From positions 3,968,001 to 4,032,000 of the forward strand of contig CP118523.1 of NCBI GenBank assembly GCA_029227815.1: DNA of 64,000 bases, given 5' to 3'. Source of the DNA: Clostridiaceae bacterium M8S5 (GTDB lineage: Bacteria > Bacillota > Clostridia > Tissierellales > MCWD3). Position 1 is the stretch's first letter, and each line of letters begins with the position of its first letter. Made by a program: the position numbers and the translations under genes. Under the pieces are notes generated by a model. It saw nothing but the letters and a program-made list of their open reading frames with translations, did not search any database and had not been told where the DNA came from. Of the stretch, positions 44,954 through 56,990 are shown in pieces.

Positions 44954-45077
44954 CTACTTATATTAAGTTTTAGTACCTAGTTCTAATTGTATGTATATAT
45001 ATTATTCTTCTAATTTGCATAATATTCGCACTATACTATAATTTTCATTTCCCTAATTTATATGAATTTTTGTACAC

Positions 45078-45106
45078 TAAAAAGGAGTATTGGAAAATAC
45101 TCCCTA
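45078..45106 (-). terminator. Terminator downstream of the RiPP maturation operon
   Basis: GGAGTATT and AATACTCC form an 8 bp stem around a 3-4 base loop, with TTTTT on the minus strand. It lies beyond the msrA relic. Confidence 0.8.
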
Positions 45107-45244
45107 TATCCCTCTTTTACTATCACGTATTTATTAAATTAATTACCACATGACAAGATATATCTATACTTACATGCAGTGCATATATATTCCCAATTTT
45201 ATTTGTATCTGAATTTAACAGATATATGCCGTTTTACATTGTTC

Positions 45245-45304
45245 TTATTCTTTGAATAATTTCTAAAACTCTTCATTACAGTACTTTTTTATAAATTCGC
45301 CCCT
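45245..45304 (-). pseudogene. Decayed copy of the msrA 3' end
   Basis: One frame of the minus strand reads GEFIKKYCNEEF, stop, KLFKE, stop. This aligns with the last 19 residues of MsrA at 55215-55772 (DEFIKKYWNDEFWKLFEE, stop), including a 17-base identical run (GAATTTATAAAAAAGTA). The Trp codon has become TAG. Upstream similarity fades quickly, so only the extreme 3' end of a former msrA remains. It lies on the opposite side of the RiPP maturation genes from the intact msrA, in the same orientation. Confidence 0.75.
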
Positions 45305-45381
45305 TTAATATAAAAAGTCTAATACTTAATAATAGATTACCCCAACTAGCACAATTAATTATTAGAATTAAGCCTATATAT

Positions 45382-45409
45382 TTGCTCTAACAGTTTAAGA
45401 ATTGTTAGA
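45382..45409 (-). other. Stem-loop at the 3' end of the B12 radical SAM gene
   Basis: GCTCTAACA and TGTTAGAGC form a perfect 9 bp stem spanning the stop codon. It has no T run on the minus strand; a T run follows on the plus strand. It may be a weak terminator or a 3' stabiliser. Confidence 0.45.
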
Positions 45410-47182
45410 GCTTACTTTTTTCTTTTTATATTGCATTATCCTTGGTTCAAAATCTAAGTATACAAATTTTACGTATACACTATCGTATATTAAAACTCTT
45501 TTTCTTTTTGCTTCTAAAACATTAAATCTAAAATGATAATATTCTGATTCTTTTTTCTTTTCTTCACAAAATTCAAAGAATATTTTTTCAAATTTAAGTA
45601 TATTACTAAAATAATCCGATTTATCATAGTACGCTACATCCTCTAAAATCTCTTTTATAAATTTACAGCTTTCAGATATAAATCTATATTTATCTGTGAC
45701 CTGATTTATCCTATAGCTTTGTTGTATTTTGAACATTTTCTCAATCTTGTTTATATATTTTTCGTACAGTAATTCCCATCCAATTTTTTTTAGTATGTAG
45801 TCAATAGAACAATCAAAAATACTCATTGCCGACATTACAGTACTATGAAAAAAATCAAATCTTTTATATTGTCTTCTAACTTCTGAACTAAAAGTATGGT
45901 ATTGTATAAATGCTTCTGGATATCTTTTTATAAAATCTATAGCTTCATCATCATATATTCTTGTATTATATATTGATATATTTACATCAGATTGATCAAA
46001 ATAAACTTTGTTTTTTATCTTATTTGTATCAACTGTTTGTGGCAATACCATAAATCTATGTAACTGAATATCTGTAACTCCTAAGCGTCTAATTTCTTCC
46101 ATAATCTTAATAGTTTCTTTGAAATCCTGTATTGTCTCATATGGAAACCCATATATAAATGATACCGTTACATCTATCCCTGTTTTTACAATTATACTAA
46201 TAAGATTTTGCACGTCATCTAAGTCTAAACATTTATTAATTGTTTTTTGCATTTTTCTAGATCCAGTTTCTATTCCCAAAAACATTCCCTTACAGTTTGC
46301 TCTATGCATAAGAAGTATAGTTTCTTCATCTAATGCATCTATTCTCGATGAACAAGTCCATTCAAATTCTAGTTTTTCGCTTAGTAATATATTACAAAAC
46401 GCATGTACTGTTTGCTTATTTACTGTAAACATATCATGTATTAATGAAAATTTTTTAACATTATATATTCTATTAATCTTTACCATCTGGTTTATTATCT
46501 CTCTTACTGGTTTAATACGAAATTTTCTACCCCAAAACATGCTTGTTGAACAAAATGTACAGCTAAATGGACAACCCCTTCCGACCTCTAGTTCTATTCT
46601 ATCATTTTTTGAAAACTCAAATGGTTTATAGTTGTAAACATTATAATTCACCAATTCTTCATTGGTCAACAACTCACAAGGTTTGTTTACAATTGTACTA
46701 CCGCCATATCTATACACTATTCCTGGAGTTTTTTTTAGATCTTCATTTTTCATAAGTTTATTTACAAGCTTAAGAATTGTTTTTTCTGATTCTCCAAGAC
46801 ATATTACATCAATAAATGAAAAATTTTCAAGACATGTTTCTGCAGTCATTGTTGCGTGTGGACCTCCAAATACAATCTTAATATCTTTATTTATACTCTT
46901 TATTGCTTCAGCAATTTTTATAGTTACATAAAACGAGTTGCAAATTGTATAAAATCCAACAATTTTTGGTTTTTTATTGAGTATATAGTCTGTAAATTGT
47001 TTTATGTTTTCTTTTGCTGAACTTTTATATTGGAGTTCTTTTGTATAGTTTAAATAATCAAAATTGACATACTCTACTTTATACTTATCCTGTAATATGT
47101 CTCGTAATATTAACTGACCGATATTTGGTAATTTTTTTTCATAAACAAAATCTATACTATTTATCAACAGTACGTCTGTCAT
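45395..47182 (-). CDS. B12-binding-type radical SAM enzyme of the RiPP cluster
   Basis: 595 residues. N-terminal cobalamin-binding-like Rossmann domain (about 1-150, with VGFYTICNSF, FGGPHATMTAE and ICLGESE; no DxHxxG), radical SAM core with the 4Fe-4S motif CPFSCTFC (Cys204, 208, 211) after GRG, and a 200-residue helical C-terminal domain I do not recognise. Family members methylate unactivated carbons or rearrange rings; here a modification of the small Cys peptides encoded at 56046-56478 is inferred from context only. GGGAGG precedes the ATG. Last gene of the maturation operon. Confidence 0.85.
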   Translation of the reverse strand: MTDVLLINSIDFVYEKKLPNIGQLILRDILQDKYKVEYVNFDYLNYTKELQYKSSAKENIKQFTDYILNKKPKIVGFYTICNSFYVTIKIAEAIKSINKDIKIVFGGPHATMTAETCLENFSFIDVICLGESEKTILKLVNKLMKNEDLKKTPGIVYRYGGSTIVNKPCELLTNEELVNYNVYNYKPFEFSKNDRIELEVGRGCPFSCTFCSTSMFWGRKFRIKPVREIINQMVKINRIYNVKKFSLIHDMFTVNKQTVHAFCNILLSEKLEFEWTCSSRIDALDEETILLMHRANCKGMFLGIETGSRKMQKTINKCLDLDDVQNLISIIVKTGIDVTVSFIYGFPYETIQDFKETIKIMEEIRRLGVTDIQLHRFMVLPQTVDTNKIKNKVYFDQSDVNISIYNTRIYDDEAIDFIKRYPEAFIQYHTFSSEVRRQYKRFDFFHSTVMSAMSIFDCSIDYILKKIGWELLYEKYINKIEKMFKIQQSYRINQVTDKYRFISESCKFIKEILEDVAYYDKSDYFSNILKFEKIFFEFCEEKKKESEYYHFRFNVLEAKRKRVLIYDSVYVKFVYLDFEPRIMQYKKKKVSSNNS

Positions 47183-47241
47183 ATCTTTCCTCCCATTATG
47201 TGATGTATTTTATTTCTCTTTTTAATTATCTGATACATCAA

Positions 47242-48252
47242 CTAGAGCGTAGCATTGAGTTTATGTATTACTTTTTTTATCTTCTCTATTTTATATGTTA
47301 AGCAACCACTATTGCATTTTTTCACTATTCTGTTATAACAATTTTGACACTGATTAGATGACTTCACTAAATAACTATAATCGTCTATTTTATATTTGAA
47401 ATAATTTCTTATATCTACTATATTTGAAAAATTACTTATATCTACTCTTAGTATATCTGATAACCCAAAACAACGTATAGCGGTTAAGTCTTGTAGTATA
47501 TCTATGATTGGGTCACAATTGGATTTTAAATTAATAACATTACTTATTTTTTTCTTGCTTATTTTCAACATTTTACGTCTATCTTCTTCATCAAATACAC
47601 ACAATGGCATTTTATTGCAATCAAAGTATGGTGTTATTCCCATTTCTAATGCTTCTATTATAACTTTTAATGTAACATTCTTCATTGTTGTATAGTATTG
47701 TAATGCATCAAATTCTTCATCTAATTTAAAATTTGGCACAACTACTGAAAGTCTTAATTTGTCTATTTTTAACATGTTAATCAATTCAAAAATATATGTA
47801 CAGTCCATGTCTGGTTTATATAAATTAATTCCTAACGCAATTTTCTCCTTTAGATTTTTTAGAGAGACAGCTTTTTTTAAGTTTGCAACCAACTTAGAAT
47901 AATTCTTTCTTCCTATAATATCTTCATTGTTACAGTTAACTAAAATTTTCATCTTAGGATGAGCTATTTTGTCCCAAAATTTATCTATAAGTATACCATT
48001 TGTAAATATAATTACTTTTTCAACTTTCTCATTATCAGCTAGATAATCCAGTATTTTATCAAACTGGGGGTGTAATGTAGGTTCTCCCCCTATAATACCA
48101 ATATGTTCATTGTTGTTATCTGCTGTAATAAAATCTACAGCTATTTTAAAATTTTCTAGTGTTATATTATTCCCTTTGTTATAATTAAAGTCATTCACAA
48201 AACAATACGTACATCTAAGATTACACTCGCTATTAATCATTATATTCGCCAT
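47242..48252 (-). CDS. SPASM-like radical SAM peptide maturase
   Basis: 336 residues. The radical SAM cluster motif CNLRCTYC (Cys10, 14, 17) is at the very N-terminus, IGGEPTLHP follows, and the C-terminal third is Cys-rich (CDP, CFG, then CQNCYNRIVKKCNSGC), as in SPASM or twitch domains that bind auxiliary Fe-S clusters. Such enzymes form thioether or C-C cross-links in RiPP precursors. It is 31 bp after the ABC transporter genes in the cluster, so the Cys peptides are the likely substrates. AAAGGTGAG precedes the ATG. Confidence 0.87.
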   Translation of the reverse strand: MANIMINSECNLRCTYCFVNDFNYNKGNNITLENFKIAVDFITADNNNEHIGIIGGEPTLHPQFDKILDYLADNEKVEKVIIFTNGILIDKFWDKIAHPKMKILVNCNNEDIIGRKNYSKLVANLKKAVSLKNLKEKIALGINLYKPDMDCTYIFELINMLKIDKLRLSVVVPNFKLDEEFDALQYYTTMKNVTLKVIIEALEMGITPYFDCNKMPLCVFDEEDRRKMLKISKKKISNVINLKSNCDPIIDILQDLTAIRCFGLSDILRVDISNFSNIVDIRNYFKYKIDDYSYLVKSSNQCQNCYNRIVKKCNSGCLTYKIEKIKKVIHKLNATL

Positions 48253-48282
48253 CTGGTCTCACCTTTCATGTTTAGATAGTAA

Positions 48283-49914
48283 TTAAAATTTTATTATTTC
48301 TTCACAGCTTTGGATAGCTTTTTTCTTATGGGCTACCATTATAACTGTATTTGCATGTTTCATTATATTAGAAATAACTTTATCTTCATTATCAGCATCT
48401 AGTGCAGATGTTACTTCATCTAACACAAATATTTCAGCATCTTTAAGCAATGCCCGTGCTAATGCTATTCTTTGAGCTTGTCCTTGTGATAATTTTACTG
48501 AAACTCCGCAACCAATTTCTGTATCATATCCATTTTCAAACCCTAATATGAATTCATGAGCACATGCTTTCTTAGCGGCTTCTATAATTTCATCAAATGT
48601 TGCATTTTTTTTACCATAGGAAATATTTTCTCTTATTGTTCCCGAAAAAAGAGAATATCCCTGTGGCACATAGCTAATATGCTCTCTAATCTTTTCTCCG
48701 TTATAATCATATCCGTTGTATTGTAGATTTATTTCTCCTGACCTTGCATTATACAAACCCATTATTAGCTTCAATAAAGTTGATTTACCTTTACCACTTG
48801 CACCCACAATAACCGTCTTTTTTCCTATTTTAAATTCAAAGTTCGAATTCGAAAATACCAGATTCAATTTGTTCGAATATGTGAAATCTACATCTTTCAT
48901 TGTTATTTTATTTTCTGTTTGTGTATCAATTGATACTAACCCATTTTCCCTCTCTACATCTTTTATATTTTCATAAAGTCTTTTGTAAGATACTCTTTCT
49001 CTTGTCAATTCCGATATTAATCCCGATAACGCAAAAAATGGCCAATTAAAATTATTACCAAGATTCATAAACCCTACATATACGCCTATTGATATTTCAT
49101 TATTTCTAATCAGATAAATTCCATAAATCATCCATAATGTATTCATTAAAAATCCAATACCAATATTCATAGAACTCATTCTGGCTTCTGCTTTCATATT
49201 ATTAACAGCACTTTTTGAATATTGGCCATAATTCTTAGAAAATTTCTTTATAAAAAAATCACTAGCCATAAATGCCTTAATTACATGTAACCTATTAATA
49301 CTATCTAATATCATACCTCTAATCACAGCATCATTAATTTGCTTTTTTTTCTGACTTTTACTTACCGCTGATGCTAATATTTTAGGCATAATAAATGATA
49401 AAAGTGATAATGACAAAATTAGCAACGTCAGCTTAATCGATCTTGTAAATCCATAAACAATAGCTAATGAAAACTGTATAATACCAGATAATAACGCAGT
49501 TTGTGTATTTGAAAAAAAACCTGCAAGTATCTTGCAATCAGATGTTAATTTCGTCATCCATTCTCCTTGGTCTTGTTTTTCCCAAAATAATAAATTTGTT
49601 TTCGTTTTCTTATCAATTTGTTCTCGCTGTAATTTATGTAATGTTTGTTGTTCTAGTAATCTCTTTTGAGCAGCATAAATTTTTAATGAAATACCAGATA
49701 ATATTATCAGTAAAAATGCTACTATCGAAAAGCAAATTAACCAGCTAGTATTTATATCCGTTATTGATTCTATAATATTTTCATAGGCAATAGACAAGAA
49801 AAATTTTATTGAATCGATTCCTAATATTAATAATACAAAAAAACAAATTTTGGCAATGCTAGGATTAACTTTTTTTATCATCTTTAAATATGTATCACTA
49901 CAATACCTCTTCAA
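48283..49914 (-). CDS. ABC exporter half-transporter B of the RiPP cluster
   Basis: About 543 residues: transmembrane domain of six helices (about 15-310) and an ATPase domain with Walker A GASGKGKST, signature KLSQGQAQRIALARALL, Walker B IFVLDEVTSALD and H-loop VAHKKKA. No C39 peptidase domain is present. It overlaps the end of the preceding ABC gene; the TTG at 49914 is chosen because GGAGGTGG lies 5 bases before it, while the frame extends to a GTG at 49929. With the adjacent transporter it probably forms a heterodimeric exporter for the mature peptide, possibly also giving self-protection. Confidence 0.85.
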   Translation of the reverse strand: MKRYCSDTYLKMIKKVNPSIAKICFFVLLILGIDSIKFFLSIAYENIIESITDINTSWLICFSIVAFLLIILSGISLKIYAAQKRLLEQQTLHKLQREQIDKKTKTNLLFWEKQDQGEWMTKLTSDCKILAGFFSNTQTALLSGIIQFSLAIVYGFTRSIKLTLLILSLSLLSFIMPKILASAVSKSQKKKQINDAVIRGMILDSINRLHVIKAFMASDFFIKKFSKNYGQYSKSAVNNMKAEARMSSMNIGIGFLMNTLWMIYGIYLIRNNEISIGVYVGFMNLGNNFNWPFFALSGLISELTRERVSYKRLYENIKDVERENGLVSIDTQTENKITMKDVDFTYSNKLNLVFSNSNFEFKIGKKTVIVGASGKGKSTLLKLIMGLYNARSGEINLQYNGYDYNGEKIREHISYVPQGYSLFSGTIRENISYGKKNATFDEIIEAAKKACAHEFILGFENGYDTEIGCGVSVKLSQGQAQRIALARALLKDAEIFVLDEVTSALDADNEDKVISNIMKHANTVIMVAHKKKAIQSCEEIIKF

Positions 49915-51568
49915 CACTACCACCTCCACTAATCTTGACTATTTTATTCTTACTCTGAATTGAGGCTGATTCGTGGGAAACTATTATACACCCCTTTGTC
50001 TTAGATAATGTAATTAGCATTTTTTTCAACTCTTTAATATTTTGATTGTCTAATGCTGAAAAAGGTTCGTCCATAATTATAAATGGCGTATCTCTAATAA
50101 TTGCTCTAGCAATTGCTATTCTTTGTGCTTGTCCAGCTGAAATGTTAATATCATCTTTTATCACTGTAGAATATCCGTTGGGTAATTTTTTTATAAATTC
50201 ATGTATTTTTGATAATTTAGCTACTTCCTCTACTTGCTCAATAGAAATATTATCTAATCCTAATGTAATATTGTCATACACTGATAACGCAAAAATAGCA
50301 TTATCTTGTGGCACATAAGATATATATTGTTTGAGTTCTTCTTTTGTAATCTTTCTATCTTTTGCTTTAATGTATATATCTCCTTTCGTAGGTTGATATA
50401 AATTCAAAATTAATTTTATTAATGTACTTTTACCTATCCCGCTCTCACCTATTAGATATATTATTTCACCTATATCACAACTCATATTAATTTCACTAAA
50501 TAATTCTTTTTTCCCACTATAGCCGAAGGCTACATCTTTTAATTTTAATACTAAATCAATTGATTTTATTTTCGTTTTATTTATAAGCTCTACATCCTTT
50601 ATTTTTATTAGTTTAGAAACCCTTTCCCAAGAAGCATATTGCTCTGCAACATCCGCAAGTATATATGGTAGTTCAGTTATTGGGTATACTATTGACCCTA
50701 TTGATGCATTCCAAATGCCAATCAATGTTCCCAAAACGATCAAATCAGCTCTGACTAAATAAATACCTATGACTAGTATTAATAATTCTATAATTAATAC
50801 ACCTGTTTCTGTAAAAGTAGCCATATTACTAATGCTACTAGCTTGTTCTTTGGCATGTCTATATTTTTCGGTATAAATATTTTTCTCTTTATTAAGTATT
50901 CTTTTTTCTAAATTGTATATTTTTATAATGCTTCCATTCTCGTGAATTTCTTCAAATAAACTTCTGTGTTTTCCTTCTGATTCTTGAAATTTGGAATATG
51001 TTACAGCAATTTTGTTTGAAAACTTTTTATTTAGTATGTAAAATATAGGCATTACAATCAATAAAACTAAACTAATATTTAAGGAAAAATAACAAACATA
51101 GATTACTCCCAAAATAATGTTTACACCAAGTTGTATGGCACTAAAAATAGTCCTAGTTATATATCTACAACAATTATCACAATCTTCAATCATACGTGTA
51201 AGGTAATCACCATTATTCATCTTCTGACTTTCTGCTAATGATAAATTGATTATATTTGTGTATAATTTTTTCTTTAATCTTGCTACAAGGTATTGAAATA
51301 TCTTTTCTTTATATATTGGAAGCAAATATGATGCTATAATATATAATAAACACCCTACACATAACAATATTGAAATTTTTAATAAAGATACCTCTCCCAT
51401 TTCATACACAACACTGTTAAGTCCTAAATGTATTAGATATGATAATAATACATTAAATCCTGCTACATATAGTAATGATATAATCATAACTATATACATA
51501 TGGAATGGTGCTTTTGATATCTCTAATAATGAAATAAAATATGCTTTATCTATTCTTTTTTTTTTCAT
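49898..51568 (-). CDS. ABC exporter half-transporter A of the RiPP cluster
   Basis: 556 residues: six-helix transmembrane domain followed by an ATPase with Walker A GESGIGKST, signature NISAGQAQRIAIARAI, Walker B FIIMDEPFSALD and H-loop IVSHE. Both ATPase domains of the pair look intact. No peptidase domain, so the leader must be removed elsewhere or after export. The start is set at the third in-frame ATG (51568), where AAAGGA is 9 bases upstream; 51589 is possible. It lies 32 bp after the YcaO gene. Confidence 0.85.
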   Translation of the reverse strand: MKKKRIDKAYFISLLEISKAPFHMYIVMIISLLYVAGFNVLLSYLIHLGLNSVVYEMGEVSLLKISILLCVGCLLYIIASYLLPIYKEKIFQYLVARLKKKLYTNIINLSLAESQKMNNGDYLTRMIEDCDNCCRYITRTIFSAIQLGVNIILGVIYVCYFSLNISLVLLIVMPIFYILNKKFSNKIAVTYSKFQESEGKHRSLFEEIHENGSIIKIYNLEKRILNKEKNIYTEKYRHAKEQASSISNMATFTETGVLIIELLILVIGIYLVRADLIVLGTLIGIWNASIGSIVYPITELPYILADVAEQYASWERVSKLIKIKDVELINKTKIKSIDLVLKLKDVAFGYSGKKELFSEINMSCDIGEIIYLIGESGIGKSTLIKLILNLYQPTKGDIYIKAKDRKITKEELKQYISYVPQDNAIFALSVYDNITLGLDNISIEQVEEVAKLSKIHEFIKKLPNGYSTVIKDDINISAGQAQRIAIARAIIRDTPFIIMDEPFSALDNQNIKELKKMLITLSKTKGCIIVSHESASIQSKNKIVKISGGGSVEEVL

Positions 51569-51600
51569 TATCTTCATTCCTTTCTGCATAAATATTTCTT

Positions 51601-53403
51601 CTATACTATTGTTTCTTTTAATTGTAGAATGCTCTCTAGATTACTTTGATTAATATTTGCTATAATTTCTCTTTTATTTAATTTATCTAACACGTTATGT
51701 AACGCAACTTCTTTTTTATTATCATCTGGATATTGTAGACGTATAACATTTTGAGGATTTATATACATTTCATTAATTGATTTGCATATATCATTGTCAT
51801 AAAAAGACTCTAAATAAGATATTGTTTCTTCATGTGATAATTCAACTGCCCTACCTTCGAAATATTTTTGAGTTGCATTAAGTAAAGATTTTTGTTGATT
51901 ATCTAGTTTGTCTGAATATAACATTAGCCCAATGTATTCGCCCCCTTTTTTGTAATTTTCTTGTAATATATAGCACATAGATAAAAAATATACAATATCA
52001 CAATTTATTTCTTCATATGGATATTTAAAATCATCATGTCTAGTATAGATTTTTTGCATACAATTAAATGCCACATATTTATAATAATAGTGTATAGTTC
52101 CTATAATATATGTAATATTATCTAAGCTTATTTTACTTGGATTACTTAAAAATTTTTGTATATATTTAAATGTGTTTGTGAATTTAATATCAATTTCTGT
52201 AAATTTTGTTAGTTCTGATAAATGTGGTACTATAATGTGGTAAGATGGAAATCCTAATATTGAAACATCTCTTATATAAATATCATATCCCGCTATTTCT
52301 AAACTGTTTAATATTCTGTATAACAGTTCTTTATTGTTTTTTTCTGATACATCTTCAAATGGTGTAAATTCAACATCTGATTTTCTACTTAAAAATTGAT
52401 ACGGATACTGACCTTTTGCAACACCGAATATATTATAATAATTACTATTTGTGTTAACTCTTCTGTTTGTGAAATCTAGTGTAGAATTTTTTGCAAATTC
52501 TAATATATCTTGCCCTTGACATGCCTCTGTAAACGAACGCTCCAATGCAATTCCAAAATCCGGATGAGCACCAAAATGAACACCATACTTTCCAGTGTTC
52601 TTTTCTATTATGATTAATGCCACAACTGGAAATGCATTATTCATTGAGCAATCTTTTATATAGAATTTATAATTTTCAAGTTCATTCATTGTCTTATACA
52701 TTTCATATACTTGAGGGTATTTAATTATATGTTCCTCTGGAACATCCGGTAAGGATAAGTTTTCTTCTATAACCTTCCTATTAATATGTCGTTCAAATAT
52801 TTCTGAAAAACCCTGAACTAATGCTTCGTAGCTACTATTACCTGCACACATGCCATTTGTTCCATAATATGGCTTAATTAAATTATCTGGTAGATATTCA
52901 ATTCTTTTCTTTGTTGTATTGTAAAATGGGTAAACTAAGTATTTACCATTTTTTAATTTTCCTAAATTAAATAGTTCTTCAAATTTTTTAATTTTATCTT
53001 CATCTGAAACATTGTCTATTGATAAACTAGAAAGAATTAAATTTATTAAGGAATTATTGGAACTAATGATTTCTTTTGCCGTCATATATTTTTCATCTTT
53101 TACACTATAGTAACCAAATTTATCAAAATTACAATAATTATTATCTAATAAAACCTTGTTCTGGTATCTTTCAAAAAACTCAGCATACGCACTTGCTAGA
53201 GCATATTCTTTTGATACTCCTTTTCCATTTGTTCCAACCAAACTTCCTTTTACATTAATTCTTAAAGAATATGTACCAACAGTACTTACTGGTAACCACC
53301 TTTCTTCTATATCAATCGCCATTTCTTTCAATATGTTTTTTAAGAGATTTATAGTTTTTATTGGCAAAACATCTTTATAATGATTTTCTTGATTAATCTT
53401 CAT
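51601..53403 (-). CDS. YcaO family protein (E. coli YcaO-type) of the RiPP cluster
   Basis: 600 residues. The YcaO ATP-binding motifs are visible: GTNGKG then SAYAEFFER (Ser71, Glu75, Glu78, Arg79), GTNGMCAGNSSYEALVQG with FSEIFERH (Glu193, Glu201, Glu204), and ERSFTEACQG (Glu293, Gln296). After about residue 420 a helical TPR-like region runs to the end. Length and N-terminal motifs resemble E. coli YcaO (586 aa) more than azoline synthetases, and the C-terminal PxPxP typical of those is absent. YcaO enzymes use ATP to activate peptide amides (azoline, thioamide or amidine formation); the reaction here is unknown. GGAGG precedes the ATG. Confidence 0.9.
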   Translation of the reverse strand: MKINQENHYKDVLPIKTINLLKNILKEMAIDIEERWLPVSTVGTYSLRINVKGSLVGTNGKGVSKEYALASAYAEFFERYQNKVLLDNNYCNFDKFGYYSVKDEKYMTAKEIISSNNSLINLILSSLSIDNVSDEDKIKKFEELFNLGKLKNGKYLVYPFYNTTKKRIEYLPDNLIKPYYGTNGMCAGNSSYEALVQGFSEIFERHINRKVIEENLSLPDVPEEHIIKYPQVYEMYKTMNELENYKFYIKDCSMNNAFPVVALIIIEKNTGKYGVHFGAHPDFGIALERSFTEACQGQDILEFAKNSTLDFTNRRVNTNSNYYNIFGVAKGQYPYQFLSRKSDVEFTPFEDVSEKNNKELLYRILNSLEIAGYDIYIRDVSILGFPSYHIIVPHLSELTKFTEIDIKFTNTFKYIQKFLSNPSKISLDNITYIIGTIHYYYKYVAFNCMQKIYTRHDDFKYPYEEINCDIVYFLSMCYILQENYKKGGEYIGLMLYSDKLDNQQKSLLNATQKYFEGRAVELSHEETISYLESFYDNDICKSINEMYINPQNVIRLQYPDDNKKEVALHNVLDKLNKREIIANINQSNLESILQLKETIV

Positions 53404-53458
53404 ATCATCAATTCCTCCGTATTTTTATTTTTTCAGAATTTTAAGTAATTCACATTTG

Positions 53459-54553
53459 CTAAATGCCACAACATACACAACCTGTTTGCTTTTTGAATGG
53501 TGTGACTTTTAACTTTGATGCTTTAGTATCCATAAAACTATTCATCGTTATCGGCTTGTCTACTCCAATTATGTATCGTAATATCTCTTCGAATAAGTAA
53601 TAGGAAAGAGACCATGGTCCTGTTACTATAGCTGGATATATACTTCCCACATTTTCGTCTAAATTCTCAATCATTGTTGAATACAATCCATTACTATCAT
53701 TGTCTAAATATTTTTTAAAACATTCAAAGCAAGCTGATTTACCTGGAACATAAAATGGTCCAACCGAATTATTATGTGTGAAAATAACTGGAATTTTTCT
53801 TTTTACACACGCCTTATTTATAATCCAATCAATATAACCTTTTGGTTTATCAGCAGTTTGTATAACTAATGAATCATTTACTAAATGTTTATATGCTGCT
53901 TCCTCATTACTTATAAAAGCCTCAACTGTTTCTACTTTAGTATAAGATGTAAAGTTATTAATAAACCTCTTTAAAGCATTAACTTTTTTTACTTTATTGC
54001 AATCCGTTTCTCTATAGAATATTTGTCTAACTAAATTCCCCATTTCTACGTAATCATTATCTATTAATCTCAATTTCTTTACCCCTATAGCAGCTGCCAT
54101 AACCGCTATATTACTACCTACTCCTCCAAGTCCTATAATAGTGATTTCTGAATTTCTAATTTTTTGTTGTATCTCAAAACGGTTTATGTCATCATTCTCA
54201 TATTCTTTAAATGCTGCAATTTGTAAGCCAAATCTTTCACTAAAGTATGCTTCAGGCATTTTATAGCTTTGCAACATATCAATATCTGTATCATCTGGAA
54301 AGTTAATGTGCTCTATAACTCCTATCTCCATCAACTTATTCAATAAGTAACTTATGTTTTTTTTATCAAACCCTTTTACAATAGCCTCATTAATTAACGA
54401 TTCTTTTTTTGTTATTGATATATTCTCTATAATAAATTCTATTTCTGGATTATTTTTTAGTTTATAAATTTTAAAATTTGTATGATCAGCTATATAATAA
54501 AAATCTCTGTTTTTTCCTATATCTAAGGTAGTTCCCAGCCTAATTAATTGCAT
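53459..54553 (-). CDS. E1-like (ThiF family) protein with N-terminal winged-helix-like domain
   Basis: 364 residues. Residues 1-90 have a beta-strand/winged-helix pattern resembling the peptide-recognition element (RRE) that binds RiPP leaders. Residues 135-345 are an E1-like adenylating fold with GLGGVGS (141-147), the acidic IDND (164-167), NLVRQ (173-177) and a zinc-type pair CFEC (275-278) with CVCC at the extreme C-terminus (359-362). In ThiF/YcaO pairs this protein presents the substrate to YcaO. GGAGG before the ATG; 55 bp before the YcaO gene. RRE is a proposal by eye. Confidence 0.85.
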   Translation of the reverse strand: MQLIRLGTTLDIGKNRDFYYIADHTNFKIYKLKNNPEIEFIIENISITKKESLINEAIVKGFDKKNISYLLNKLMEIGVIEHINFPDDTDIDMLQSYKMPEAYFSERFGLQIAAFKEYENDDINRFEIQQKIRNSEITIIGLGGVGSNIAVMAAAIGVKKLRLIDNDYVEMGNLVRQIFYRETDCNKVKKVNALKRFINNFTSYTKVETVEAFISNEEAAYKHLVNDSLVIQTADKPKGYIDWIINKACVKRKIPVIFTHNNSVGPFYVPGKSACFECFKKYLDNDSNGLYSTMIENLDENVGSIYPAIVTGPWSLSYYLFEEILRYIIGVDKPITMNSFMDTKASKLKVTPFKKQTGCVCCGI

Positions 54554-54750
54554 CTTACATCCTCCTATAAGCTCTCTAATGTAATTTTATCTTATAGTAA
54601 CATTAAAACTATATATATGTAATTTGTTAAAACATAATAACTTGATAGGCGATTTTTTTTAGTAATTTAGTTCTTAAATATACTCGTATTTAGTTTGCAT
54701 AAATAATAATTTATGACTTTTTTTAAATATAAAAACTTAAAGCTCTAAAC
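54554..54750. other. Leader region between the 47-codon ORF and the ThiF gene
   Basis: AT-rich with no ORF. Several weak -10-like TATA stretches are present but no promoter I can choose between. The ThiF start has a clear GGAGG site at its left edge. Confidence 0.35.
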
Positions 54751-54894
54751 TTATTTCCTTATTCTATGCTCTCCATATGAAAAAGACACATCAACAACTT
54801 CTACTTCAAATAAGTCTTCTTTTCTTAAGCAATCTCTTTGTTCTATTATATTAAAATCTTCTTTGTTAATTAAGCCAGTATTTACATTATTCAT
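54751..54894 (-). CDS. Small ORF upstream of the ThiF gene (possible fourth precursor)
   Basis: 47 residues starting MNNVNTGLINKEDFNIIEQR and ending VSFSYGEHRIRK. AAGGGAG lies 11 bases before the ATG; an in-frame GTG four codons earlier overlaps that site. One Cys (residue 22), no hydrophobic signal, and a strand-like tail (EVEVVDVSFSYG). It is on the operon strand, about 200 bp upstream of the ThiF gene, and could be a precursor without the CxC core, an accessory leader-like protein, or chance. Similarity searching would be needed to tell. Confidence 0.4.
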   Translation of the reverse strand: MNNVNTGLINKEDFNIIEQRDCLRKEDLFEVEVVDVSFSYGEHRIRK

Positions 54895-55160
54895 TCTAAT
54901 ATACACTCCCTTTAGTTTTATAAAATCGCCTAAATCAAGTAAAAACCGATTTATTGTAGTTATTATCTTTTCTTTTATATATTTTTACATTTATGTATAT
55001 TATAATGCTTTTGTGTATTTTTTTCAATATTAATCACTAAAAAGCTAAAACAAGTAAATTTTATAATTATTGTAAATTGTATTGATAATCCGATTAACCT
55101 TTATATTATTTTAATATTAGCTTATATAAAATATAATAATTTTTACATTCTATTTTATAT

Positions 55161-55200
55161 AAAAAAAACATATATTACAAAATCTAATGTAATATATGCT
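55161..55200 (-). terminator. Terminator of msrA
   Basis: GCATATATTACA and TTGTAATATATG form an 11-12 bp stem, followed by eight T on the minus strand. It separates msrA from the maturation operon. Confidence 0.85.
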
Positions 55201-55214
55201 TTGTTTTCTAGCAT

Positions 55215-55772
55215 TTATTCCTCAAACAACTTCCAAAATTCATCATTCCAATACTTTTTTATAAATTCATCTCTCCCTGATATTTTTCTGTCTTCTTTAT
55301 ATTCCACTGGATTCTTTTTATAAAAATGTTGGTGATATTCTTCTGCTGGATAAAATTTACTTACTGGTAGTATTTTTGTCACTATTGGTTTATCAAATTT
55401 CTTCATATCTTCAAGTTTTTGTCTTGATTCGTGAGCTAGCTGTTTTTGTCTTTCTGTTATATAAAAAATAGCCGATCTATATGATGGTCCTCTGTCATGG
55501 AATTGACCATTTTCATCTGTTGGATCTATTTGCATCCAGTAAACTTTTAGTAGCTTTTGGTAGTCAATCTTCTCTGTATCAAATGTTATCATTATAGCCT
55601 CATAATGTCCTGAATTTTGAGATTTAACATCTTCATATGTTGGGTCAGTTATTTGTCCTCCTATGTATCCAGATTCTACTCTTATTATTCCGTCTAATAC
55701 ATCAAATGGTGAAACCATACACCAAAAACAACCTCCTGCAAATATGGCTCTCTCGTAATTTGAATTTTCCAT
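55215..55772 (-). CDS. msrA: Peptide methionine sulfoxide reductase MsrA
   Basis: 185 residues. Catalytic Cys in the hallmark AGGCFWCMVSPFD, followed by GYIGGQITDPTYEDV, DPTDENGQFHDRGPSYRSAI and the C-terminal KFYPAEEYHQHFY. It reduces methionine-S-sulfoxide and repairs oxidised proteins. Start at 55772, 5 bases after AGAGGTGA. It has its own terminator. It sits between the precursor peptide genes and the maturation operon, and a decayed copy of its 3' end lies beyond the maturation operon, so its presence may reflect the insertion history of the cluster. Confidence 0.95.
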   Translation of the reverse strand: MENSNYERAIFAGGCFWCMVSPFDVLDGIIRVESGYIGGQITDPTYEDVKSQNSGHYEAIMITFDTEKIDYQKLLKVYWMQIDPTDENGQFHDRGPSYRSAIFYITERQKQLAHESRQKLEDMKKFDKPIVTKILPVSKFYPAEEYHQHFYKKNPVEYKEDRKISGRDEFIKKYWNDEFWKLFEE

Positions 55773-55963
55773 AAGATTCACCTCTTTTATTACTTAGCCT
55801 GAATTGCTCATGAAACTTTGATAAATACGTTGTAGATTTCTAATTTACAATTTTTCTATAGTACGGTGAAAAAGTAAGGAAGCATTGTAATTAGAACGAT
55901 GTGATATATGGTTTTCTATGATAATTAGGCTAGTGTATTTACATTATATCACACTATTATAAG
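55773..55963. other. Region between msrA and the precursor terminator
   Basis: No ORF of significance. It presumably holds the msrA promoter, which I cannot pin down. Confidence 0.3.
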
Positions 55964-55995
55964 TAAACAAAAACCCCTATTGATAATAAGGGTTT
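55964..55995 (-). terminator. Terminator of the precursor peptide operon
   Basis: AAACCCTTAT and ATAGGGGTTT pair around a short loop, followed by TTTG TTT on the minus strand, 50 bp after the third peptide gene. The precursor genes are therefore a separate transcription unit from msrA. Confidence 0.85.
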
Positions 55996-56045
55996 AAGTA
56001 ATACAATTCCAGCAATAATTTTATTAATATTTCTTAAACTTTACA

Positions 56046-56174
56046 CTAAAAATCTGTTGTCATAGCCTCCTGTCCTTCGGACCTGTCAAATGTTTTATCG
56101 CAATGACACATACATCTATTTATGCTATTAATCTCCATAGTCATTATTTTAATTCTTTTCGCTAATTTTTTCAT
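56046..56174 (-). CDS. RiPP precursor peptide 1 (CxCxC core)
   Basis: 42 residues. N-terminus MKKLAKRIK, hydrophilic leader, then RCMCHCD with Cys21, 23 and 25, and an ending in TTDF. GGAGGT lies 8 bases before the ATG. Paralogous to the two peptides immediately upstream (same MKKLxK start, Cys spacing and aromatic C-terminus), which argues strongly that all three are expressed. Proposed substrate of the YcaO/ThiF/radical SAM enzymes encoded nearby. Too short for ordinary gene calling and not annotated by length filters. Confidence 0.85.
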   Translation of the reverse strand: MKKLAKRIKIMTMEINSINRCMCHCDKTFDRSEGQEAMTTDF

Positions 56175-56197
56175 TTTATATACCTCCATATATAAAA

Positions 56198-56323
56198 TTA
56201 GTAGAACTTTCCTCCAGCACTTTCATCAGCTGTCTCTTTAAAATTGTATGGACAAATACAGTGACATACGTATGAATTAACTGTTAGGTTTTCTACTTTT
56301 TTTCTTTTTATCAATTTTTTCAC
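56198..56323 (-). CDS. RiPP precursor peptide 2 (CxCxC core)
   Basis: 41 residues, GTG start 7 bases after GGAGGGG. N-terminus MKKLIKRKK, then a LTVNSYV segment, Cys20, 22 and 24 in YVCHCICPY, and the tail ADESAGGKFY. It aligns with peptide 3 (ADNGAGPRF tail). It lies 23 bp upstream of peptide 1 in the same transcript. Confidence 0.87.
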   Translation of the reverse strand: MKKLIKRKKVENLTVNSYVCHCICPYNFKETADESAGGKFY

Positions 56324-56355
56324 GATTCTTCCCCTCCAGTATTTATATTATGTTA

Positions 56356-56478
56356 TTAGAATCTTGGACCTGCACCATTATCTGCTCTCTCAAATATATC
56401 TCTTCCACACATACATCCGTATGAAACTTCGTTAACTATTAGTGTTGCTTTTGTATTTTTTTTCACTAATTTTTTCAT
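56356..56478 (-). CDS. RiPP precursor peptide 3 (CxC core)
   Basis: 40 residues. N-terminus MKKLVKKNTKATLIVNE, then YGCMCGRD with Cys22 and Cys24, and the tail ADNGAGPRF. GGAGGT lies 7 bases before the ATG. First gene of the three-peptide transcription unit, 32 bp upstream of peptide 2. The name of each peptide's modification is unknown; the Cys residues are likely sites for thioether, azoline or related changes. Confidence 0.87.
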   Translation of the reverse strand: MKKLVKKNTKATLIVNEVSYGCMCGRDIFERADNGAGPRF

Positions 56479-56524
56479 TTTATTACCTCCATTTTTTATG
56501 TTTTGTATATTGTCATTTGAAACT

Positions 56525-56552
56525 ATAATATAGCTGGAATTGTATATTGTAA
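56525..56552 (-). promoter_or_regulatory. Candidate promoter of the precursor operon
   Basis: TTACAA (56547-56552) and TATTAT (56525-56530) with a 16 bp spacer, about 45 bp before peptide 3. The palindrome CTATAATATAG (56523-56533) overlaps the -10 region. Confidence 0.5.
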
Positions 56553-56569
56553 TTATATAGCAAGTGTGT

Positions 56570-56766
56570 ATTTTTTTTAAAATTTATTACATTAATTTAA
56601 TATTTTTTGTTAATTTTGTATATTTATTAATCTTATGCATTTTTGTGCATTTTATAATAATTTTTTGTACTCTACAACAATAGCAATTCACATGATTTTG
56701 TAACATTTAACTTATAATGTTTAATTTTACATTATATTTTTATTAATTTTTTATAAATTTAAACTA
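56570..56766. other. AT-rich upstream region of the precursor operon
   Basis: No ORF and no further CxC peptide was found on either strand; long A/T runs upstream of the candidate promoter. Confidence 0.35.
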
Positions 56767-56795
56767 AAAAAGGAATGTCTAACGACATTCCTTAT
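56767..56795 (-). terminator. Terminator copy with T run, distal to repeat element II
   Basis: GGAATGTC and GACATTCC form a perfect 8 bp stem with a 4-base loop, followed by six T on the minus strand. The same hairpin occurs at 56949-56971 on the other side of the repeat element. Confidence 0.85.
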
Positions 56796-56799
56796 AGAT

Positions 56800-56948
56800 T
56801 GATGACAAAGTCATCAAGATAGCAGACTTTAGTAAAAGTTCAATTTCAAGGCGTGTTAAAATTGAGTAGCAGAGCTTACTTAGAGGTAAGTGAGCAACGG
56901 AAATTTTAACAACAACACAGAAATTGGGCTTTTGTCTACGGTCTGAAA
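56800..56948 (-). repeat. Terminator-nested palindromic repeat element, copy II
   Basis: About 149 bp, some 95% identical to the reverse complement of 21230-21378. Outer arms AAAAGTTCAATTTC/GAAATTGGGCTTTT, middle stem TTAAAATT/AATTTTAA, inner hairpin GCTTACTT/GGTAAGT, and a perfect TTGATGAC/GTCATCAA hairpin at one end. Flanked by two copies of the oadB terminator hairpin. Confidence 0.82.
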
Positions 56949-56971
56949 GGAATGTCTAACGACATTCCTTA
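56949..56971 (-). terminator. Terminator hairpin proximal to the decarboxylase operon
   Basis: Perfect GGAATGTC/GACATTCC hairpin 20 bp after the beta-subunit stop, with only TTT after it. The T-rich copy is at 56767-56795 beyond the repeat element. Confidence 0.8.
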
Positions 56972-56990
56972 ATACATCATTTTCATTTAT

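Follow-up and report, generated by a model that had tools for sequence, protein, structure and literature searches.

Three cysteine-rich ORFs next to a ThiF-YcaO cluster in a clostridial genome as predicted members of a dispersed precursor family, possibly matured in trans by CcpM

Upstream of a RiPP-like cluster with ThiF and YcaO genes in Clostridiaceae bacterium M8S5 lie three short tandem ORFs, which raise the question whether they encode precursor peptides and, if so, whether the enzymes next to them or enzymes encoded elsewhere act on them. The window analyzed here is a stretch of 64,000 nucleotides (contig CP118523.1, positions 3,968,001 to 4,032,000), and its features are listed in Table 1. 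The three ORFs are separated by gaps of 23–32 nt and share the consensus MKKL[VIA]K[KR], followed by CxC or CxCxC. An earlier reading of the DNA made from its letters alone (hereafter the sequence-only reading) had described the MKKL and lysine-rich start of all three peptides, the spacing CxC in peptide 3 and CxCxC in peptides 1 and 2 at residues 20–25, the endings DF, FY, and RF, as well as a GGAGG site before each ORF, all of which were confirmed from the sequence and the ORFs. The aromatic ending, though correctly described, is not a family feature, as other members of the family introduced below end variously. Peptide 1 starts with an ATG behind its GGAGG, and there is also a longer open ATG start at 56189. 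With regard to the transcription signals that had been proposed on both sides of the trio, the terminator was recovered as a terminator-like hairpin, whereas the promoter candidate is weak and the number of promoter-like matches in the region (24) equals that expected from shuffled sequence (23.8). An Rfam scan over the region yielded no match.

Table 1. Features of the window around the three peptide ORFs (coordinates within the 64,000-nt stretch).
Feature	Coordinates	Strand	Size and properties	Basis
Stretch missing in the sister genome, where the flanking genes are adjacent	45051..56978	.	11.9 kb	Genome comparison
Decayed msrA 3' end, far side of RiPP cluster	45247..45300	-	54 bp	81% identity
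B12-binding radical SAM protein	45395..47182	-	595 aa	Domain search
Radical SAM protein	47242..48252	-	336 aa	Domain search
Two ABC transporter half-units	48283..51589	-	49898-51589 and 48283-49929	Domain search
YcaO protein	51601..53403	-	600 aa	Pfam YcaO, E=2.4e-49
ThiF/E1-like adenylating enzyme	53459..54553	-	364 aa	Pfam ThiF, E=1.7e-36
Short ORF preceding ThiF by about 200 bp	54751..54894	-	47 aa	ORF list, position
msrA-like gene between trio and RiPP cluster	55215..55781	-		Sequence, GCFWC motif
Intrinsic-terminator-like hairpin closing the trio	55971..55995	-		Sequence search
Peptide 1 (last in operon)	56046..56174	-	42 aa, core CMCHC, MKKLAKRIKIMTMEINSINRCMCHCDKTFDRSEGQEAMTTDF	
Peptide 2	56198..56323	-	41 aa, GTG start, core CHCIC, MKKLIKRKKVENLTVNSYVCHCICPYNFKETADESAGGKFY	
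Peptide 3 (first in operon)	56356..56478	-	40 aa, core GCMC, MKKLVKKNTKATLIVNEVSYGCMCGRDIFERADNGAGPRF	
Weak sigma-70-like candidate promoter upstream of the trio	56552..56581	-		Best upstream match
Dispersed repeat between decarboxylase gene and trio	56795..56950	-	156 bp	At least 48 copies in the source genome

The source genome of the window (G000; 4.68 Mb, one contig) was searched with the model TIGR04065 and then with a profile built by aligning the peptides detected first. In the profile search, which yielded at least 40 similar places in this genome, the trio had E values of about 1e-11 (peptide 3: E=1.2e-11 with profile A1 and 2.1e-9 with profile A2; peptide 1: E=1.7e-11 with A1). A curated set was obtained by filtering the stretches around profile matches for a ribosome binding site (RBS), an MKxL/K-rich start, and the pattern C-x(1-3)-C, whereby at least 51 members passed in the source genome and at least 29 in the sister genome (G001). 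The same filter gave one match in 1.5 Mb of dinucleotide-shuffled DNA, and since the filtered stretches had been chosen for holding matches, the fair contrast is about 3 members expected per genome versus 51 seen. All counts come from searches and from stretches of the genomes and are lower bounds; for the 51 this is so because further members start with ATT or carry other leaders. The members of the source genome are distributed over 24 loci separated by more than 5 kb and have 35 transcription starts, and most of them stand singly among unrelated or housekeeping genes, while others occur in small tandem arrays. In two members, one of them at 996,436 of the source genome, a good RBS is followed by ATT where the start codon would be expected, which may reflect decay or a non-standard start. 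With its basic MKxL leader, its CxC or CxCxC near residue 20, and an RBS for each ORF, the trio shows the features of this dispersed MKxLxKK...CxC(xC) family, to which it almost certainly belongs, and the three ORFs are very probably RiPP precursor genes. With the top candidates per genome scored, the dispersed family was found, among 249 genomes of the order, only in the source and sister genomes, and 391 genomes of the class added no further genome; a peptide search in plasmids gave no match. The best explanation for this distribution would be a genus-specific expansion of CLI_3235-like cysteine-rich precursors, scattered singly or in small tandem arrays. Such a lineage-specific expansion, together with the stops at some family places and the ATT at others, would also suit decaying or selfish remnants that have no present function, among them the trio. 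However, the three ORFs of the window are intact and have strong RBSs, a promoter of fixed spacing (see below) is kept before many members, and close pairs of members retain the core cysteines in 48 of 52 cases, so that we regard decay as highly improbable.

The sequence-only reading had pointed to TIGR04065 and had called the peptides Clo7bot-type. TIGR04065 (NCBIfam, CLI_3235 bacteriocin precursor) matches peptide 2 with E=1.6e-5 and 25.0 bits and peptide 3 with 7.2 bits, and it does not match peptide 1; all three stay below the curated cut-off of 26 bits. The guess at the family was thus nearly right, with peptide 2 falling just short of the cut-off. The name was not, as TIGR04065 stands for the CLI_3235 family, which is paired with CcpM (TIGR04068). 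Clo7bot peptides are likewise clostridial and cysteine-rich and have a radical SAM/SPASM maturase, but this maturase (TIGR04334) is of another family than the CcpM found here. Clo7bot identity was rejected, since TIGR04334 gives the CcpM proteins 56–64 bits, where listed, against a cut-off of 600, compared to 402–577 bits for the same proteins with TIGR04068. Across the dispersed family, 12 of 39 members are matched by TIGR04065 at E<=1 (best E=1.6e-5), and a member beside the second CcpM gene (CcpM2) scores 33.3 bits. If membership is judged by a position adjoining CcpM, the trio falls outside TIGR04065, with its nearest CcpM about 113 kb away, whereas its paralogues at 729–731 kb and 3.42 Mb fall inside.

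Three CcpM proteins above the TIGR04068 cut-off are encoded in the source genome, at 730,820 (CcpM1), 3,422,494 (CcpM2), and 4,137,098 (CcpM3). CcpM1 has an array of four family members directly upstream and is followed by genes matching TIGR04066 (374 bits) and TIGR04069 (75 bits); its orthologue in the sister genome (78% identical) has nine members directly upstream and is followed by TIGR04066. Four members are located near CcpM2 in the source genome and one in the sister genome, and CcpM3 is accompanied by a cysteine-rich MKKTLGK peptide of its own and a subtilisin-like protease. Several CcpM genes from other genera of the order are directly adjoined by an MKxL-type cysteine-rich precursor as well. 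In the sequence read around all other member loci of both genomes (for most loci at least about 4 kb on each side), no CcpM gene was found, which implies that CcpM would act there in trans. CcpM also scores against models for the PapB ranthipeptide, RumMC sactipeptide, and lachnocin maturases. HHalign comparisons revealed no relation of CcpM to ThiF and, for the local radical SAM protein (47242-48252), a relation in the radical-SAM core only. Family, profile, and CcpM adjacency evidence together support the earlier view of precursor peptides with a common leader and a cysteine core. Homologues next to unrelated genes only had been named as an observation that would speak against this view; most homologues are indeed placed in this way, but the precursor view is upheld by the arrays next to CcpM. 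The solitary position of most members among housekeeping genes could, in turn, suggest that the peptides are not modified at all but are short cysteine-rich peptides for metal binding or signalling that have no more than a leader in common, all the more as CxCxC could bind metal. Against this speak the arrays immediately preceding complete CcpM systems in both genomes, the cysteine-rich relatives beside CcpM in other genera, and a leader that is conserved in front of a variable core, and we consider unmodified peptides improbable.

The enzymes closest to the trio are those of the ThiF-YcaO cluster. It is conceivable that the trio provides the substrates of this cluster, whereby YcaO and ThiF would modify the backbone at cysteines and the local radical SAM proteins would add further changes. 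The trio is located on the same strand as ThiF, 1.5 kb upstream of it, and within the same stretch missing from the sister genome. There, the genes for a decarboxylase beta subunit and accB are adjacent, with 45051-56978 missing between them, and the trio and the RiPP cluster are therefore common to one island. Furthermore, a radical SAM/radical SAM/YcaO cluster on contig 69 of the sister genome has a family member 1.7 kb upstream of it; members near YcaO clusters have thus been seen twice, which keeps local processing under consideration. However, the msrA-like gene, the terminator, and intergenic DNA of several hundred bp intervene between trio and cluster. The trio is thereby neither adjacent to the YcaO and E1 genes nor likely to be co-transcribed with them, as would be expected of a YcaO-dependent (TOMM/LAP-like) precursor. 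Moreover, in each of the two YcaO clusters another peptide is better placed to be the precursor. In the window this is the ORF at 54751-54894, which by its position is probably the precursor of the ThiF-YcaO cluster, and in the sister genome it is a 41-aa peptide ending in CHHGC, MKEKEKENPIKKEELIKKIDEEFSEKTKVNNQEEQICHHGC, about 125 bp before the radical SAM gene. Distant relatives of the ThiF protein are encoded in RiPP-like clusters on plasmids of Firmicutes (Levilactobacillus brevis, Macrococcoides caseolyticum, and Sporosarcina), where a short cysteine-free ORF, never a CxC peptide, lies just upstream of ThiF; these ORFs correspond by position to ORF 54751-54894 and not to the trio. No other family member of the source genome adjoins a ThiF gene, and the msrA 3'-end remnant on the far side of the cluster suggests that the block from ThiF to the B12-binding radical SAM gene arrived beside msrA as a unit of its own, separately from the trio. 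Overall, we regard processing by the local enzymes as unlikely. The link to the local YcaO gene implied by the sequence-only reading is unsupported, as the relatives of the trio are found beside CcpM or alone. It had further been proposed to compare the trio with precursors beside homologous YcaO genes, and no homologous ThiF-YcaO cluster was found for this in 391 genomes of the class.

Some observations concern the clusters and the island as such. The cluster at 45395-54894 is an unusual RiPP-like one, and neither a comparable ThiF-YcaO cluster nor a close relative was found in 391 genomes of the class. The small plasmid pMCCL1 of Macrococcoides caseolyticum carries, in an RiPP-like arrangement, ThiF, two radical SAM genes, and an MFS transporter gene in a row behind an ORF of 29–39 aa. 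The cluster on contig 69 of the sister genome (5945-12654 of the stretch read) consists of the 41-aa peptide, two PapB-like radical SAM/SPASM proteins, YcaO, and a NodU-like carbamoyltransferase. Copies of the 156-bp repeat in the source genome are 91–100% identical and partly in tandem, and several adjoin peptide loci (at 729.8 kb, at 991 kb, and in the window); no copy was found in the sister genome, and the repeat has no Rfam match.

With regard to transcription of the family, a short-word promoter search gave single k-mers no better than those from shuffled sequences. Side-by-side reading of the upstream stretches revealed the motif GGAACAW-N17-TCTWAT, which was then tested genome-wide. 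It has a fixed spacing and is mostly located 27–78 nt before the start codon of family peptides. Exact matches number 20 in the source and sister genomes together (9.5 Mb), compared to 3 for the reversed pattern; about 15 of them lie just before family peptides, 2 before variant short cysteine-containing ORFs, and 3 elsewhere. In a weight matrix analysis, 24 of 69 upstream stretches exceeded the 99% threshold of 10.5. The motif precedes about a third of the family transcription starts and is not universal in the family; upstream of the trio it was not detected (score -1.1). Its form resembles an ECF sigma factor promoter (cf. the sigma-E type promoters of Escherichia coli). The same motif is present before short ORFs with other leaders (MSLSKFVGYK..., MTLLKFVAYT..., ITLSKFKNYE...), which possibly form a second family of precursors within this regulon.

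On balance, we think it reasonably probable that the trio represents dispersed RiPP precursors matured by a CcpM encoded elsewhere and not by the local enzymes. What we infer from the sequence comparisons is processing of the trio in trans along with its chemistry, export, and role, in the following way. The constant MKxLxKK leader would be recognized by a CcpM-type radical SAM/SPASM maturase encoded at another locus, which would form thioethers between the cysteines of CxCxC and acceptor residues of the variable tail, by sactipeptide or ranthipeptide chemistry. A subtilisin-like protease would then cut off the leader, in line with the proposal made for SacP23, and the leader-free product would be exported, probably to serve an antibacterial or signalling role. 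Several points speak against processing in trans, namely the distance to the nearest CcpM, the lack of the ECF-like promoter before the trio, the 12-kb island in common with the RiPP cluster, which brings radical SAM and YcaO genes of its own, and the TIGR04065 scores, of which only that of one trio peptide comes near the cut-off, yet remains below it.

Among known systems, the CLI_3235/CcpM systems (TIGR04065, TIGR04066, TIGR04068, TIGR04069) have the same basic MKxL leader and a cysteine-rich core, and members of the present family adjoin two of the three CcpM systems of the source genome. They differ in that known systems, as well as those of the other genera seen here, keep their precursors beside CcpM, whereas here dozens are scattered, and in that the present family has a compact CxCxC core and mostly stays under the TIGR04065 cut-off. 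The SacP23 system of Paenibacillus polymyxa combines a CLI_3235 precursor with CcpM, TIGR04066, and TIGR04069 and further includes an ECF sigma factor, an ABC transporter, and a protease of the subtilisin type; its product is reported to be active against MRSA (PMC10731318). Precursor type, CcpM, TIGR04066, and TIGR04069 are common to SacP23 and the present systems, and its ECF sigma factor parallels the ECF-like promoters described here; however, SacP23 is a single precursor of 61 aa in one cluster, with a longer cysteine-rich core. Prochlorosin precursors share a leader, are encoded across the genome, singly or in tandem, and are served by one or a few promiscuous enzymes (SyncA), whereby their function is described as unknown (PMC10783134). 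This layout of scattered precursors and a promiscuous enzyme is common to the prochlorosins and the present family as read here, but prochlorosins are lanthipeptides made by a LanM-type enzyme in picocyanobacteria and have a Nif11 leader with a GG motif, and no sequence relation is claimed. CLI_3235/CcpM systems are already known, and so are, in prochlorosins, scattered precursors with a promiscuous enzyme (PMC10783134); a radical-SAM version of the scattered layout in Clostridia, with a set of ECF-like promoters, was not found in a non-exhaustive literature search. The chances seem about even that the present family is such a radical-SAM counterpart of the prochlorosins, in which at least 50 scattered, leader-sharing, cysteine-rich precursors, many of them under one ECF-like promoter, would be converted in trans by a few CcpM enzymes into a library of thioether peptides within a clostridial genus. 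Gene-cluster mining, which looks beside the enzyme, would overlook the majority of these precursors. Should processing occur in trans, promiscuous radical SAM enzymes would provide a single clostridial genome with a natural, combinatorial set of thioether peptides, of use in enzyme engineering. The common ECF-like promoter offers a testable way to address under which conditions and to what end such libraries are produced, as is also asked for the prochlorosins.
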